The notes beneath the pieces were generated by a model, which had not been told where the DNA came from, made no database searches, and saw nothing but the letters and a program-made list of their open reading frames with translations. 64,000 nucleotides of DNA from Thermobifida alba (GTDB taxonomy: Bacteria > Actinomycetota > Actinomycetes > Streptosporangiales > Streptosporangiaceae). The stretch's first letter is position 1, and each line of letters opens with the position of its first letter. The position numbers and the translations under genes were made by a program. The stretch is from positions 1,860,001 through 1,924,000 of the forward strand of contig NZ_CP051627.1 in NCBI RefSeq assembly GCF_023208015.1, in the 5' to 3' direction. Of this stretch, positions 4,243-13,601 are shown in pieces.

Positions 4243-6717
4243 ATGGACAGCGACAGCACCTTCGAGGGGACCTCCTACGGTCCGGTCCCCGGCGGGAGCA
4301 TGGCCTCGGCCACGGTCGACGTGCGCGGCACCGTGCTGGCGTGGAGCTGGGGGGCCCAGTGGCTGTTCGGTTACTCCCCTGCCGAGGCCGTGGGCCGTCC
4401 GATGGCCGAGGTGTTCGGTCTGGAGGAGTCCGCGCCGATCGACTTCGCCTCCTATCCGGCGGCGTGGGTCGGTGAGGTGTCGGCCCGCGACCACAACGGT
4501 GCGCCGCTGCCGCTGCAGTTGTACGCCCAGCCGCTCCACGACGCGCGGGGGCTCACCCAGTGGCATCTGGTCGTCCTCGGCCGGGTCGGTCCCCGCAAGC
4601 CGGGCCCTCCCGTGGGGGAGGTCGAACTCGCGCTGCTGCGGGAGTGGACCCTGGCCCAGTCGGCGCTGCCGGTGACGATCTTCGACCACAAGGGGAGGGT
4701 CGTGGAGATCAACCAGGCCATGGCCCGGCTCTCGGGCATCACCACCAAGCACGCGGTCGGGCTGCGGCCGCGGGAGCTCGCCCCGCTGCCCGTCTTCGCC
4801 GAACTCGACCGGCTGTTGGACCAGGCGCTGAACACCGGGAGGCTGGTGCGTCACGACCTCCACGGCCGGGTGGGCGAGGAGACCCAGGAACGCGTCTGGA
4901 CGGTGTTCTTCTCCCCGCTCAGGGATGACGACGGGCAGGTGCACGGTGCGTCCTGCACGGTGTTCGACAACTCCGAGCAGCACTGGGCGCGCCGCCGTCT
5001 GGCCGTGCTCGACGACGCCAGCACCCGTATCGGCACCACCCTGGGGGTGAACCGCACCGCCGAGGAGGCGGCGGAGGTGCTGGTCCCCCTGTTCGCCGAT
5101 TCGGTCATCGTGACACTTTTGGAGCCGGTCTACCGGGGCGCGGAGCCGACGTTCGCGCCGCTGCCCGATCCGGTCCCGTTGCGTTGTCTGGCCCGCCACT
5201 CGGCCCTGGGCGGGTGGGGCGAGGGGGTTCCCGAACCGGGTGCGCTGCTGCACTACCCGTTGGACTCTCCGGCGGGTGTCTGCCTGTCCGAGCGGCGTCC
5301 CCTGCGGTACCGGATCGACGACTCCTCCCTCGTCGAGTGGTTGGAGCAGTCGCCCGTCTTCGCGGAGGCCCTGCACGCCTACGGGGTGCGTTCGCTGATG
5401 CTGATTCCGCTGCTGGTGGGCGGCCGCCCCTTCGGGCTGGTGCTGCTGCTGCGGCACCGGCGCACCGCGCCGTTCACCGAGGACGACCTGTTGCTGGCCC
5501 AGGACGTCTCCACCAAGGCCGCGATGCGTATCGACAACGCGCGCCGCTACGCGCGGGAGCGCGACACCGCGTTGACGTTGCAGCGCAGCCTGCTGCCGCA
5601 GCGGCTGCCGCACAACTCCGCGGTGGAGGTCGCCACCCGCTACCTGCCCGCGGGTTTCCGGTTCGGTGTGGGCGGCGACTGGTACGACGTGATCCAGTTG
5701 TCGGGGGCGCGTGTCGCCCTGGTGGTGGGGGACGTCACCGGGCACGGTCTGCACGCCTCGGCCACGATGGGGCGGCTGCGCACGGCCGTGCGTGCCCTGT
5801 CGGACGTGGATCTGGCCCCGGATGAACTGCTCACCTACCTGGACGACCTGGTGGTGCACCTCAATGCCGAGGAGGAGGCCCAACCCGTTCCCGACTCCGT
5901 GGAGGAGGCGGGCCTCGACCTGATGTCCGAGATCGGCGCCACCTGCCTGTACGCGATCTACGACCCGGTGTCGCGCCGCTGTGTGGTGTCGCGGGCCGGG
6001 CATCCGCCGCCCGCCGTGGTCGGCCCGGACGGGTCGGTGGAGTTCGCGGAGGTGCCTGCGGGTCCGCCTCTGGGGGTGGGCAGGGTGCCGTTCGAGTCGG
6101 TGGAGTTCGAGGTGCCCCCGGACAGCCTGCTGGTGCTCTACACCGACGGCCTGGTGGAGTCGCGCAACCGGAGCCTGGAGCAGGGGCTCGACCTGTTGCG
6201 GGAGGTGTTGGCGGAGCCTGAGCGGTTGTTGGAGGCCGTGTGCGACTCGGTGGTGCGCGCCCTGCTTCCGGCGGGCGCCACCGACGACGCGGCGCTGCTG
6301 GTGGCCCGCACCCGCGGCCTGGACTCCCACAAGGTGGCCACCCGGGATCTGCCCGCCGATCCCGCGGTGGTCGGCGAGGTCCGTTCCTGGGCCACGCAGC
6401 GGCTCGCCGACTGGGGGTTGGAGGAGATGGCGTTCACCACCGAACTGGTCGTCAGTGAGCTGGTCACCAACGCCATCCGCTACGCCAGCGCTCCGATCCA
6501 GCTGCGGTTGATCCAGAACGGGACGCTGATCTGCGAGGTGTCCGACGCCAGCAACACCGCGCCGCACCTGCGCCGGGCGCGCACCTTCGACGAGGGGGGG
6601 CGCGGCCTGTTCCTGGTCGCCCAGCTCAGCCACCGCTGGGGGACGAGGCACCGCAGCAACGGCAAGACCATCTGGGCGGAGCAGGTGCTGCCCGACCGGC
6701 AGCCCGTCGCGGTGTGA
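4243..6717 (+). CDS. PAS-PAS-GAF-SpoIIE(PP2C)-HATPase regulatory phosphatase
   Basis: 824 residues, preceded by a GAGGTGAGG ribosome site. Order of parts: a PAS domain (about 15-120), a second PAS (about 135-245), a GAF domain (about 265-430), an RsbU/SpoIIE-type PP2C phosphatase (about 450-690, with metal-binding motifs GGDWYDVI near 477 and VGDVTGHG near 495), and a C-terminal RsbW-like GHKL ATPase (about 705-824, N-box ELVTNAIRYA near 738 and DEGGRGLFLV). This is the actinomycete layout in which an anti-sigma-like kinase and the opposing anti-anti-sigma phosphatase are fused behind sensory domains. The inferred role is partner-switch control of an alternative sigma factor. No cognate STAS or sigma gene is nearby. 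A paralogue without the PAS domains lies at 33631-35397. Confidence 0.9.
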   Translation: MDSDSTFEGTSYGPVPGGSMASATVDVRGTVLAWSWGAQWLFGYSPAEAVGRPMAEVFGLEESAPIDFASYPAAWVGEVSARDHNGAPLPLQLYAQPLHDARGLTQWHLVVLGRVGPRKPGPPVGEVELALLREWTLAQSALPVTIFDHKGRVVEINQAMARLSGITTKHAVGLRPRELAPLPVFAELDRLLDQALNTGRLVRHDLHGRVGEETQERVWTVFFSPLRDDDGQVHGASCTVFDNSEQHWARRRLAVLDDASTRIGTTLGVNRTAEEAAEVLVPLFADSVIVTLLEPVYRGAEPTFAPLPDPVPLRCLARHSALGGWGEGVPEPGALLHYPLDSPAGVCLSERRPLRYRIDDSSLVEWLEQSPVFAEALHAYGVRSLMLIPLLVGGRPFGLVLLLRHRRTAPFTEDDLLLAQDVSTKAAMRIDNARRYARERDTALTLQRSLLPQRLPHNSAVEVATRYLPAGFRFGVGGDWYDVIQLSGARVALVVGDVTGHGLHASATMGRLRTAVRALSDVDLAPDELLTYLDDLVVHLNAEEEAQPVPDSVEEAGLDLMSEIGATCLYAIYDPVSRRCVVSRAGHPPPAVVGPDGSVEFAEVPAGPPLGVGRVPFESVEFEVPPDSLLVLYTDGLVESRNRSLEQGLDLLREVLAEPERLLEAVCDSVVRALLPAGATDDAALLVARTRGLDSHKVATRDLPADPAVVGEVRSWATQRLADWGLEEMAFTTELVVSELVTNAIRYASAPIQLRLIQNGTLICEVSDASNTAPHLRRARTFDEGGRGLFLVAQLSHRWGTRHRSNGKTIWAEQVLPDRQPVAV

Positions 6718-10491: not shown

Positions 10492-12018
10492 TCAGGAGCG
10501 GGGCAGCAGTTCGGCCAGCCACGCCTCGACGTCGGCGGAGGTGCGCGGCAGCGCCGCCGACAGGTTCCGGTTGCCCTCGGGGGTGACGAGGATGTCGTCC
10601 TCGATGCGCACCCCGATGCCGCGCAGCTCCTCGGGCACGGTCAGGTCGTCGGGCTGGAAGTACAGGCCCGGCTCCACGGTGAGCACCATGCCGGGCTCCA
10701 GGGTGCCGTCCACGTAGGCCTCGGTGCGCGCCACCGCGCAGTCGTGCACGTCCAGGCCGAGCATGTGCCCGGTGCCGTGCAGGCTGTAGCGGCGCTGCAG
10801 GCCCAGTTCCAGGACGCGGTCGACCGACCCCTCCAGCAGCCCCCACTCGACCAGGCCCTCGGCGAGCACCCGCTGGGCGGCGTCGTGGTAGGCGCGGAAC
10901 GGGCGCCCGGGCCGCACCTCGGCGATGCCCGCCTCCTGGGCGGCGTACACCAGGTCGTAGACGCGCCGCTGCACGTCGCTGAAGCGGCCGCTGACTGGGA
11001 TGGTGCGGGTGACGTCGGCGGTGTAGAGGGTGGTGGTCTCCACGCCCGCGTCCAGCAGCAGCAGGTCGCCGGGGCGCACCGGGCCGTCGTTGCGGACCCA
11101 GTGCAGGGTGGTGGCGTTGGGGCCGGACGCGGCGATGGTGCCGTAGCCGACGTCGTTGCCCTCCACGCGGGCGCGCAGGAAGAACGTGCCCTCGATGTAG
11201 CGCTCCGAGGTGGCCTGGGCCTGCGGCAGCACGCGGACCACGTCCTCGAAGCCGCGCACGGTGGAGTCCACGGCCCGCTGCAGCTGGCCGATCTCCCACT
11301 CGTCCTTGACCAGGCGCGCATCGTGCAGGAACACCGCGAGCTCGGCGTCGCGCCGCGCGGCCTCCTCGGCGGTCCCGGCGTCCTCGGCGGAGCGGCGCAG
11401 GGTGAGCACGGCCTCCAGGGTGGCGTCGTGGCCGCGCACGATCCGGGTGGGCGCCTCGGGGGCTTGGCGCAGCACGTCGGGCAGGGTGCGCACGTCCCGG
11501 GTGGGCAGCCCGTACAGCGCGGCGGCCTCGGCGAGGCTGTTGCGGCGGCCCACCCACAGTTCGCCGTACCCGTCGAGCCAGAACTCGCCGTTCTCCCGGC
11601 TGGAGCGGGGCCGCAGGTACAGCGCGGCGTCGTGGCCGCCGCCGGCGCGCGGCTCCAGCACCAGGCAGCCGTCCTCGGACTGGTCGCCGGTCAGGTACAC
11701 GTAGTCGCTGGCCGCGCGGAACGGGTAGTCGGTGTCGTTGGAGCGGGTCTTCAGGTTGCCCGCGGGGATCACCAGCCGCTCCCCGGGGAAGCGGGCGCTG
11801 AGCGCGGCGCGCCGCTTGGCGGTGTAGGCGGCCTGCTCGATCGGCTCCAGGTCGCGCCGCTCGGTGTCGGCCCACCCGGTGCGCATCCACTCGGCGAGTT
11901 CCGGGGAGACGTCCTTGTAGGGGCCGTTCTTGCGTCCCTTGAACTGCGGTTCCGCGGTCCTGTCCCGCTCCTGTCCGTCGCGGACCCGCTGTCCCTCGGA
12001 GTACTGCTGCTCGGTCAC
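10492..12018 (-). CDS. pepP: Xaa-Pro aminopeptidase (peptidase M24B)
   Basis: 508 residues from GTG 12018, which has GAGGAGG eight bases upstream; an in-frame ATG at 12045 lacks one. An N-terminal creatinase-like domain (PFRAASDYVYLTGDQ) is followed by a pita-bread catalytic domain. The dinuclear metal ligands are in LLLDAGVETTTLY and ADVTRTIPVSG (Asp, Asp), GHMLGLDVHD (His), LTVEPGLYF (Glu) and GVRIEDDIL (Glu). It removes N-terminal residues preceding proline, in the cytoplasm. Length and motifs match actinobacterial PepP. A very strong hairpin closes the transcript. Confidence 0.93.
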   Translation of the reverse strand: MTEQQYSEGQRVRDGQERDRTAEPQFKGRKNGPYKDVSPELAEWMRTGWADTERRDLEPIEQAAYTAKRRAALSARFPGERLVIPAGNLKTRSNDTDYPFRAASDYVYLTGDQSEDGCLVLEPRAGGGHDAALYLRPRSSRENGEFWLDGYGELWVGRRNSLAEAAALYGLPTRDVRTLPDVLRQAPEAPTRIVRGHDATLEAVLTLRRSAEDAGTAEEAARRDAELAVFLHDARLVKDEWEIGQLQRAVDSTVRGFEDVVRVLPQAQATSERYIEGTFFLRARVEGNDVGYGTIAASGPNATTLHWVRNDGPVRPGDLLLLDAGVETTTLYTADVTRTIPVSGRFSDVQRRVYDLVYAAQEAGIAEVRPGRPFRAYHDAAQRVLAEGLVEWGLLEGSVDRVLELGLQRRYSLHGTGHMLGLDVHDCAVARTEAYVDGTLEPGMVLTVEPGLYFQPDDLTVPEELRGIGVRIEDDILVTPEGNRNLSAALPRTSADVEAWLAELLPRS

Positions 12019-12118
12019 GGCTGCCCTCCTCGTCACATGTCCCACCCGGTGTCAACCCCGGCGGGGGTGGTTCTGCTTCCCATGCTAGGAGCAGGGCGGG
12101 GCCGGGGGACTTTCCGAT

Positions 12119-12174
12119 GATCTTGACACCGGAGGGCGGTGTTCCGCGCCCCGCGCCCCCACAGCGTCAAGATC
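12119..12174. repeat. Inverted repeat GATCTTGAC / GTCAAGATC
   Basis: Perfect 9-bp arms 12119-12127 and 12166-12174 (11 of 12 pairs if extended outward), 38 bases apart, enclosing GC-rich sequence. It could be a binding site for a dimeric regulator or the end structure of the neighbouring element. Confidence 0.5.
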
Positions 12175-12211
12175 GTCGCGGGTCGCGGGTCTGCGACCGC
12201 CCGGCGGGGTG

Positions 12212-12414
12212 TGTTTCGGCCGCGAGGCGCGGCAGCCTTGAGGGAGCGCAGGTCCCGGAGGGACGTCAAAGGCCCTGCGCGCTCGGGGTGCCGTCCCTGG
12301 CCAGCAGGGGAAGCCCCTCCCCCACGCATCCGGCAAGCCGCCTCTGGTGGAAAGGAGAAAATCCCTCCCCCAGCCCTGAAAAGGCCGAGGCTGCCGGGCC
12401 TCGCGGCCGAAACA
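12212..12414. repeat. MITE-like element with 27-bp near-perfect terminal inverted repeats
   Basis: Arms 12212-12238 and 12388-12414 match at 26 of 27 positions (TGTTTCGGCCGCGAGGC... read inward) and enclose 149 bases without a gene. The size, symmetry and intergenic position resemble a non-autonomous mobile or repetitive extragenic element. I cannot see a target-site duplication. Confidence 0.5.
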
Positions 12415-12488
12415 CCCCCTTTCCGATGAAGGCCGACAGCACCACGGCCTTCTTCTGTAGCCCGCCCCGCAGGCAGCTCCCCTGCGGA

Positions 12489-12740
12489 TCAGAGGACGCC
12501 GCGGCGCGCGGCGGCGAGGAACGCCTCCCACTCAGCAGCCGGAAACGCGAGGTACCCGACATCAGGATGCTTGGAATCCCGGACCGCTGCGCCGGTGGAA
12601 GGTAGGGGGGCGACTTCGACGCAGTCCTGCCCTGCGCCGCTGTAGCTGCTCTTGCGGAAGTTGGAGGGGATGGGGGCCACCTCGACGCAGTTCTCGTCGT
12701 GGCCGCTGTAACTGCTCTTGCGGAACTGGAGTTCGTTCAC
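12489..12740 (-). CDS. DUF397 small protein with duplicated N-terminal motif
   Basis: 83 residues. The family normally has a single W/F-RKSSYS...CVEVA motif. Here it occurs twice in tandem (FRKSSYSGHDENCVEVA and FRKSSYSGAGQDCVEVA), followed by the standard VRDSKHPDVGYLAFP and W-x-x-F end. DUF397 proteins partner with DUF5753 helix-turn-helix regulators in Streptomyces development loci and TA-like systems. It starts 3 bases after the regulator gene stops, so the two are co-transcribed. Repeat units are also close at DNA level, so the duplication is recent. Confidence 0.88.
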   Translation of the reverse strand: MNELQFRKSSYSGHDENCVEVAPIPSNFRKSSYSGAGQDCVEVAPLPSTGAAVRDSKHPDVGYLAFPAAEWEAFLAAARRGVL

Positions 12741-12743
12741 TGG

Positions 12744-13601
12744 TCACTCTCTAAGGGATGCAGCTACATCCTTGATGAACTCGGCGGACTGCTTCGTGCT
12801 GAGTGCGGACCCCTGTAGGTCTCCAAATGTCACGTTATACCGTTCGATCTCTTCCGGCTGTTCGAAGAAGACCGACCCTGCCATCGTGCCCACCCACACG
12901 ATGGGGGTGTCCAGTGGCTCCGGGAATTCCAGAATCATGAAGGGTGCCGTAAGGCCTGCGTGTGAGCCAGCGGTGAACGGCACAACCTGGACGTCGATGT
13001 TCGGCATCTGAGCCATGTACAGCAGGTGTTCAAGCTGCTCCCGCATGATGCGCGGTCCGCCGATGGTGCGTCGTAGAGCGGCCTCGTCGAGCACCGCGCG
13101 CAGCCGAGCGGGAGAAAACCTGGTGAGGATCTCGCGTCGAGCCATCCGGTACTCGACACGGCGTTCGATCTCCTCTTCTGAGGTGTAGCGCCCACCTTCG
13201 AAGAGAGCCCTGGCGTACTCGGGTGTCTGCAGCAGGCCGGGGATGCAGAGCGCTTCAAAGGTCCGGATGGTTGACGCCTCCGCCTCGAAGTCTGCCAGCG
13301 CTCGGTCACCGAACAGCCCTTTGTACTTGGCCCACCAACCTCGCTCGCGTGCATCGCGAGCCAGTGCGTGCATGGCCTCCCGGGTCTCGGCGTCCTCTAT
13401 CTTGTAGAGCTTCATGAGTTTGTCGAGGTCAGCAGCACTGATGCGTTTGGTCTCGGTGGTTTCCATCTTGGAGACCTTGGGGGCACTCCAGCCGAGTTCC
13501 TTCGCGACCTGGGTGACCTTGTAGCCCGCCCTTTCGCGGGCTCGGCGGAGTTCGGTGGCGAGACGGCGGAGGCGGAGGGATGGACTGCGGGGCTCTCTCA
13601 T
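12744..13601 (-). CDS. XRE-family regulator with DUF5753 (WhiJ/Scr1-like)
   Basis: 285 residues. An N-terminal Cro/C1-type helix-turn-helix (LRRARERAGYKVTQVAKELG, then SKMETTE) is followed by a DUF5753 domain from about residue 95 to the end, with the family marks CIPGLLQTPEYA and VQVVPFTAGSHAG. The DUF397 gene lies downstream and a RsbW-like ATPase gene lies divergent upstream, which matches the three-gene WhiJ/AbaA-type loci of actinomycetes. It probably represses itself through the palindrome at 13650-13668. Confidence 0.9.
   Translation of the reverse strand: MREPRSPSLRLRRLATELRRARERAGYKVTQVAKELGWSAPKVSKMETTETKRISAADLDKLMKLYKIEDAETREAMHALARDARERGWWAKYKGLFGDRALADFEAEASTIRTFEALCIPGLLQTPEYARALFEGGRYTSEEEIERRVEYRMARREILTRFSPARLRAVLDEAALRRTIGGPRIMREQLEHLLYMAQMPNIDVQVVPFTAGSHAGLTAPFMILEFPEPLDTPIVWVGTMAGSVFFEQPEEIERYNVTFGDLQGSALSTKQSAEFIKDVAASLRE

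Follow-up and report, generated by a model that had tools for sequence, protein, structure and literature searches.

The intergenic block of 203 bp with inverted ends that had been recognized in a 64,000-nucleotide stretch of the Thermobifida alba chromosome (the window) is probably an old copy from a family of intergenic, REP/REPIN-like repeats that is specific to Thermobifida and would have spread in trans; the copy at this site is decaying. The family, here called B, consists of inverted pairs of hairpin half-sites that are dispersed in three species and have grown in number also by local tandem duplication.

RESULTS

Element B at the Window Locus

The near-perfect inverted repeat of the original prediction (27 bp, 26 of 27 matching) is real and slightly longer, with arms of 32 nt that match at 30 of 32 positions (94% complementary), enclose a spacer of 149 nt, and contain the arms first described (Table 1). 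The best ungapped inverted match within 12000–12600 has a score of 24 (+1/−3), compared with a mean of 10.9 and a maximum of 16 for 40 dinucleotide shuffles. The 217-nt element is predicted to fold at −137.7 kcal/mol on the plus strand and −143.7 kcal/mol on the minus strand (z scores of −7.1 and −6.7, respectively), values equaled by none of 200 shuffles. In the right core of the window copy a C..C mismatch breaks the hairpin, the sole such arm in the set of 25 exact cores that the genome contains, and the predicted fold of this hairpin (−4.6 kcal/mol) is no better than that of shuffles.

That the block holds no gene is borne out by the Pfam search, which up to an E value of 0.01 gave nothing for the five ORFs (96–162 aa) crossing element B. 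No Rfam family was found for the element, the top match having an E value of 0.033 and a score of 23 versus a gathering score of 90. A CRISPR remnant inside the element was considered and rejected, there being none at ≤7 mismatches to the repeat consensus (single matches were reported only at ≤5 mismatches, or as groups). A short perfect stem, GAAGGCCG...CGGCCTTC, is present at 12427–12450, between element B and the DUF397 gene, and is perhaps the terminator of that gene.

Table 1. Features of the window locus and sites of a third palindrome; L numbers are followed by positions within the locus
Feature	Position	Strand	Description
Whole element B	12207..12419	.	Two inverted half-sites with a variable interior between them
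Left half-site	12207..12238	+	Covariance model, 61.6 bits
Left hairpin core	12216-12236		TCGGCCGCGAGGCGCGGCAGC; self-complementary, C-G type; folds at −8.1 kcal/mol
Right half-site	12388..12419	-	Core 12390-12410; covariance model, 58.5 bits
Interior	12239..12387	.	As a block, without counterpart in any other copy of the T. alba genome
Xaa-Pro aminopeptidase (aminopeptidase P; AMP_N + Peptidase_M24)	10492..12045	-	Element B is upstream of the gene start
DUF397 protein gene	12489..12740	-	Element B is downstream of the gene end
HTH/DUF5753 regulator	12744..13601	-	Upstream partner of the DUF397 gene
Palindrome A	12116..12177	.	62 bp, GATGATCTTGACACC...GTCAAGATCRTC; second dispersed repeat family
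Third palindrome sites	L033 ~4420; L036 ~13600; L037 ~6195; L104 ~4310; L123 ~7310; L124 ~4465

The 9-bp inverted repeat that had been predicted outside the block likewise proved real and larger, with 22-nt arms (12115–12136 and 12157–12178, 77%), and is a copy of a second repeat, palindrome A (GATGATCTTGACACC...GTCAAGATCATC). Palindrome A has 16 matches in the T. alba genome and 17 two-armed copies in the loci examined, one of which is probably due to chance. It is often located 20–60 bp from B and also occurs alone (L034, L037, L093, L111, L120–L124), and at L121 (3078–3293; T. alba, near 337 kb) it abuts three decayed CRISPR repeats. A third palindrome of ~55 bp, GTCCCCAGGGCC...GGCCCTGGGGAC, was seen by eye near several B loci.

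Copy Number and Distribution of the Half-sites

A search of the T. alba genome (4.90 Mb, one contig) with the window element gave 48 matches, of which those other than the element itself are to arms, over up to ~66 nt; the arm core, TCGGCCGNGAGGCNCGGCAGC, has 25 exact matches and 8 with one mismatch. The comparison set consisted of T. alba (G000), T. cellulosilytica TB100 (G001), putative T. fusca (G002), and G003, which fits T. halotolerans, with one genome per species. In this order, the core occurs at ≤1 mismatch 33, 60, 0, and 16 times (0 for reversed-pattern controls), and a covariance model of 59 positions, made from 78 half-sites (the alignment used 78 of 92 non-redundant references), detects 33, 64, 0, and 20 half-sites. 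The exact core is present in 4 of 297 genomes of the family, three being from the genus Thermobifida and the other having a lone match. Together with the 33 half-sites of T. alba, this agrees with the original prediction of a repetitive extragenic element that is specific to the lineage. A scan of a contig database, from which the T. alba genome was possibly excluded, gave 19 stretches, 15 of them from T. cellulosilytica TB100 and 4 being single matches in unrelated metagenome-assembled genomes. It should be noted that the set of 113 half-sites includes a few probable chance matches inside genes (L105, L109, L102:10634, and L119:5486).

Near-identical tandem units are present at L093 and L034, and regularly spaced tandem arrays at L093, L096, and L034. 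Clusters of half-sites show a preference for convergent over divergent gene pairs, lying near convergent, divergent, and tandem pairs in 18, 6, and 29 cases, respectively (n = 53), compared with a background of 20, 30, and 66, as determined with a home-made ORF caller and with weak half-sites included. Ten of 12 loci are located in the half of the chromosome centered on coordinate 1 (P = 0.02); a motif search of the first 6 kb did not locate dnaA, and therefore no claim regarding the origin is made from this bias. Two distant T. alba loci, L032 (10715–13451) and L038 (5984–8565), have a common duplicated stretch that is 86–97% identical and contains tandem, GC-rich units internal to its B elements.

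Anatomy and Pairing of the Half-sites

The half-site consensus, TTCG-GCCGSG-AGG-CSCGGC-AGCC, contains a hairpin of 6 bp closed by an AGG triloop, and this hairpin lies within a conserved arm of greater length; in 94 half-sites, conservation is strong from about −7, weak from about −34 to about +50, and at background beyond. Neighboring half-sites less than 600 bp apart are oriented +− (inward) in 39 cases, −+ in 18, ++ in 1, and −− in none, and the inward pairs are 126–512 bp in length with variable interiors. Of the 113 half-sites, 103 have C-G or G-C at stem position 5, and 10 do not. With respect to this position, the 39 inward pairs comprise 26 heterodimers, 9 homodimers, and 4 with a non-standard arm, an excess of heterodimers (26/35) for which the binomial P is 0.003, although the copies are not independent.

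The hairpin positions pair in 98.3% of 468 cells versus 90.9% in shuffles, and slid versions are 24–56% paired; L103:4177–4205, which had been mis-chosen and is not a hairpin, was left out of the hairpin-fold test. The covariation score was reached by none of 500 shuffles, and one of the six pairs covaries strongly, but neither the count of pairs with a change nor that of pair types exceeds the shuffles, so that the covarying pair may represent one ancient change that was spread by copying.

The Same Locus in Four Species

At the aminopeptidase P locus of T. cellulosilytica the left arm is decayed (4/18 mismatched) and the right arm intact, and at that of G003 an intact left arm is followed by an A palindrome. 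The putative T. fusca locus contains relics of both arms, in order, with 1/18 and 1/16 positions mismatched (0/2000 shuffles for each), and no half-site is recognizable elsewhere in that genome. An arm or relic is thus found at the locus in all four species, from which it follows that the window copy predates their split, and the broken right hairpin together with the arms decaying across species mark it as an ancestral relic in decay as opposed to a fresh insertion. A single-copy block conserved in place had been expected to favor an RNA structure or a regulator site; the block is conserved in place and is not single copy, and a regulatory RNA was rejected as the first choice for this locus because of the same decay of the arms and the broken right hairpin.

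Mobility is not established, because neither a target duplication nor a clean empty site was found: ~650 bp of B-A-B-A at L034 are absent from T. cellulosilytica, but the junction is ragged and lacks a target duplication, and an empty-site search at three loci (window, L034, and L031) gave no clean junction. The copies that had been expected of a mobile element are found for the arms, which are multicopy, but not for the full length, which matches only itself, and no flanking duplication was seen at the one presence/absence locus examined. A tRNA-like sequence immediately precedes the B/A array at L034 (L034, about 5840–5910; L253), and a CRISPR array occupies the same place in putative T. fusca.

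CRISPR Arrays and Defense Genes

The half-sites of T. cellulosilytica flank CRISPR arrays with the repeat GTGCTCCCCACGCACGTGGGGATGGTCC, which on our reading of the repeat would belong to subtype I-E. A query with the leader gave 10 matches in this species, nine leaders and one 28-bp stretch, and all nine leaders have a half-site 190–194 bp upstream of the first repeat (two at only 2 and 3 mismatches). A further half-site follows the last repeat at a distance of 27–91 bp in five of these nine arrays, with L106 and L095 each counted as one interrupted array. The leader homology between L100 and L103 begins at the first repeat, includes B, and ends ~10 bp beyond the outer hairpin, and relic CRISPR repeats are present beyond some B elements (L094, L095, L103, and L106), which fits tandem leader-array-trailer-B modules; the homology between L095 and L100 reaches further out, into the trailer. 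Leader-side B elements were found at none of the four arrays in T. alba, the five in G003, and the one in putative T. fusca, and a trailer-side B in T. alba is present at one array only, L035. The interruption of the T. cellulosilytica array at L095 (5786–7550) is ~1.8 kb in length and contains copies of GTCGTCCTCGCGCTCGGGGAAGTCCC, a CRISPR-like repeat of another kind, together with an HTH gene.

A defense-family gene is present at 6 of 10 B loci in T. alba versus 0 of 12 random loci (Fisher P = 0.003), but these loci are not all independent in view of the stretch duplicated between L032 and L038. The rule applied was a PADLOC match among the two largest called genes within 4 kb, with a scan cut-off of 1e-10 for some test proteins and 1e-20 for the rest, all counted matches being below 1e-50; the L119 half-site was omitted, the three B sites of L036 were taken as one locus, and the two L032 clusters as two. 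The matches are to a type IIG/ISP enzyme, a GmrSD-like candidate, PglX, a DrmMI/IIG-like protein, a type I methylase, and DrmD/LmuB. Under this rule the window locus has no defense gene. Similar defense genes adjoin B in T. cellulosilytica, as seen with chosen genes and without a control. At L096 (4476–5564) of the loci inspected, a nuclease-domain gene (MTES_1575/DUF559, with a weak AbiEi match) has B arrays within 65 bp on both sides.

DISCUSSION

The B family resembles the REP/REPIN systems (GTAG superfamily, RAYT/TnpA-REP) in consisting of short hairpin units that form inverted dimers and are dispersed and extragenic. A further likeness is the preference for heterodimers in the arm pairs of B, since heterodimers are preferred over homodimers in most of the CGTC and GTAG REP families described in PMC3733652. 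The dimers of B escape full complementarity between their arms, each hairpin remaining intact, which is a rule that PMC3733652 gives for REPs. B is unlike these systems in its modest copy number and its longer conserved arm (about 60–100 nt), and the GTAG/CGTC foot is absent, the conserved foot in the alignment of 78 half-sites being TTCG. The CGTC-tagged REPs are described as lacking a dedicated transposase and forming mainly head-to-head dimers (PMC3733652); the pairs of B are also mainly head-to-head, and no dedicated enzyme was found for them in the Y1 family, but the tag of B is not CGTC.

Genes for Y1 transposases (PF01797) number 0 in T. alba, T. cellulosilytica, and putative T. fusca, and 2 in G003; the latter were rejected as donors, their loci having no B half-site (best 5–6 mismatches). 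A transposase with matching ends, which had been suggested as a means of identifying the donor, was sought in the Y1 family only, and no Y1 gene has such ends; the genes scanned beside B elements include no transposase. Among the Actinobacteridae sampled in PMC6006769, only the IS200-like subclass 1.1 of the REP-transposase enzymes is reported, and in the main text of PMC3733652 there is no occurrence of Actinobacter-, Streptomyces, or Thermobifida. None of the papers listed for REPIN/RAYT/REP sequences mentions Actinobacteria, no publication was found that joins Thermobifida with repetitive extragenic palindromic sequences, and listings for Streptomyces MITEs, Thermobifida CRISPR or inverted repeats, CRISPR with REP, and duplicated arrays contained nothing on B. 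As the tag is missing, and the transposase family is missing in three of the four species, B is not filed as REP/RAYT.

In the mechanism that we propose, the half-sites would be recognized in the form of single-strand hairpins, in the way that TnpA-REP recognizes REPs, and this recognition would keep each hairpin self-complementary while the two arms of a pair differ. The enzyme responsible for their spread would act in trans; it was not found in these genomes and may have been lost. The long hairpin of the window copy is probably little more than a marker or a weak terminator where the DUF397 transcription unit ends.

Alternatively, the half-sites could delimit a cassette that moves or recombines and whose border B elements multiply and shuffle CRISPR arrays and defense genes, lone B elements having lost their cargo, a reading that we consider unlikely. 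The half-sites at every T. cellulosilytica leader and at the trailers of 5/9 arrays, the L100/L103 homology that ends near B, the relic repeats beyond several B elements, and the defense loci of T. alba (6/10 versus 0/12) are in its favor. However, leader-side B is absent from the arrays of T. alba, G003, and putative T. fusca, no recombinase was identified, and many repeats concentrate in defense islands; moreover, the L095/L100 homology extends further out into the trailer, so that B is just as likely to be a passenger in tandem array duplication. A related proposal, in which hairpin-tipped borders multiply whole CRISPR arrays and other defense modules and exchange them between chromosomal sites through a non-REP hairpin-recognizing enzyme, and in which the window copy is an emptied border, appears similarly unlikely. 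The data fit copying by borders and passive carriage of B in array duplications equally well, and many B copies may owe their spread to segmental duplications that included CRISPR arrays and not to independent movement.

Retention of the long hairpin as a bidirectional terminator or insulator, both at the ends of genes and flanking CRISPR arrays, is less probable again: the deep fold on both strands, the depletion between divergent genes, and a location after the DUF397 gene and ahead of the next start are what such a function would predict, but a run of T residues is lacking behind the main hairpin, the site scan lists small sites only, 6 of the 53 clusters are divergent, and the window copy and its orthologues are decaying and not constrained.

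MITEs of the Correia/NEMIS type have terminal inverted repeats of ~26 bp, are 100–200 bp in length and intergenic, and have a conserved interior and a target duplication. B is similar in its terminal repeats, size, and intergenic location, but the conserved interior and target duplication are not seen. The reading of the block as a MITE, one of the two originally offered and here taken as moved by a DDE transposase, is accordingly the least probable of the readings weighed here and does not hold up well, since the 32-bp terminal inverted repeats, the absence of a gene, and the multicopy arms are outweighed by an interior and length (126–512 bp) that are not conserved, by the tandem alternating arrays, by the failure to find a second full-length 203-bp copy or to see a target duplication, and by the presence of the element or a relic of it at the same site in each of the four species.

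Read as an old REP/REPIN-like family, B represents REP-like repeats in high-GC Gram-positive bacteria that have no REP tag and, in three of the four species, no REP transposase. The family therefore provides a natural test of how REP-like repeats spread and persist once the presumed enzyme is missing. In addition, the fixed place of B at every recognized T. cellulosilytica leader, together with its bias toward defense islands, suggests a testable route by which CRISPR arrays may be copied around the chromosome.
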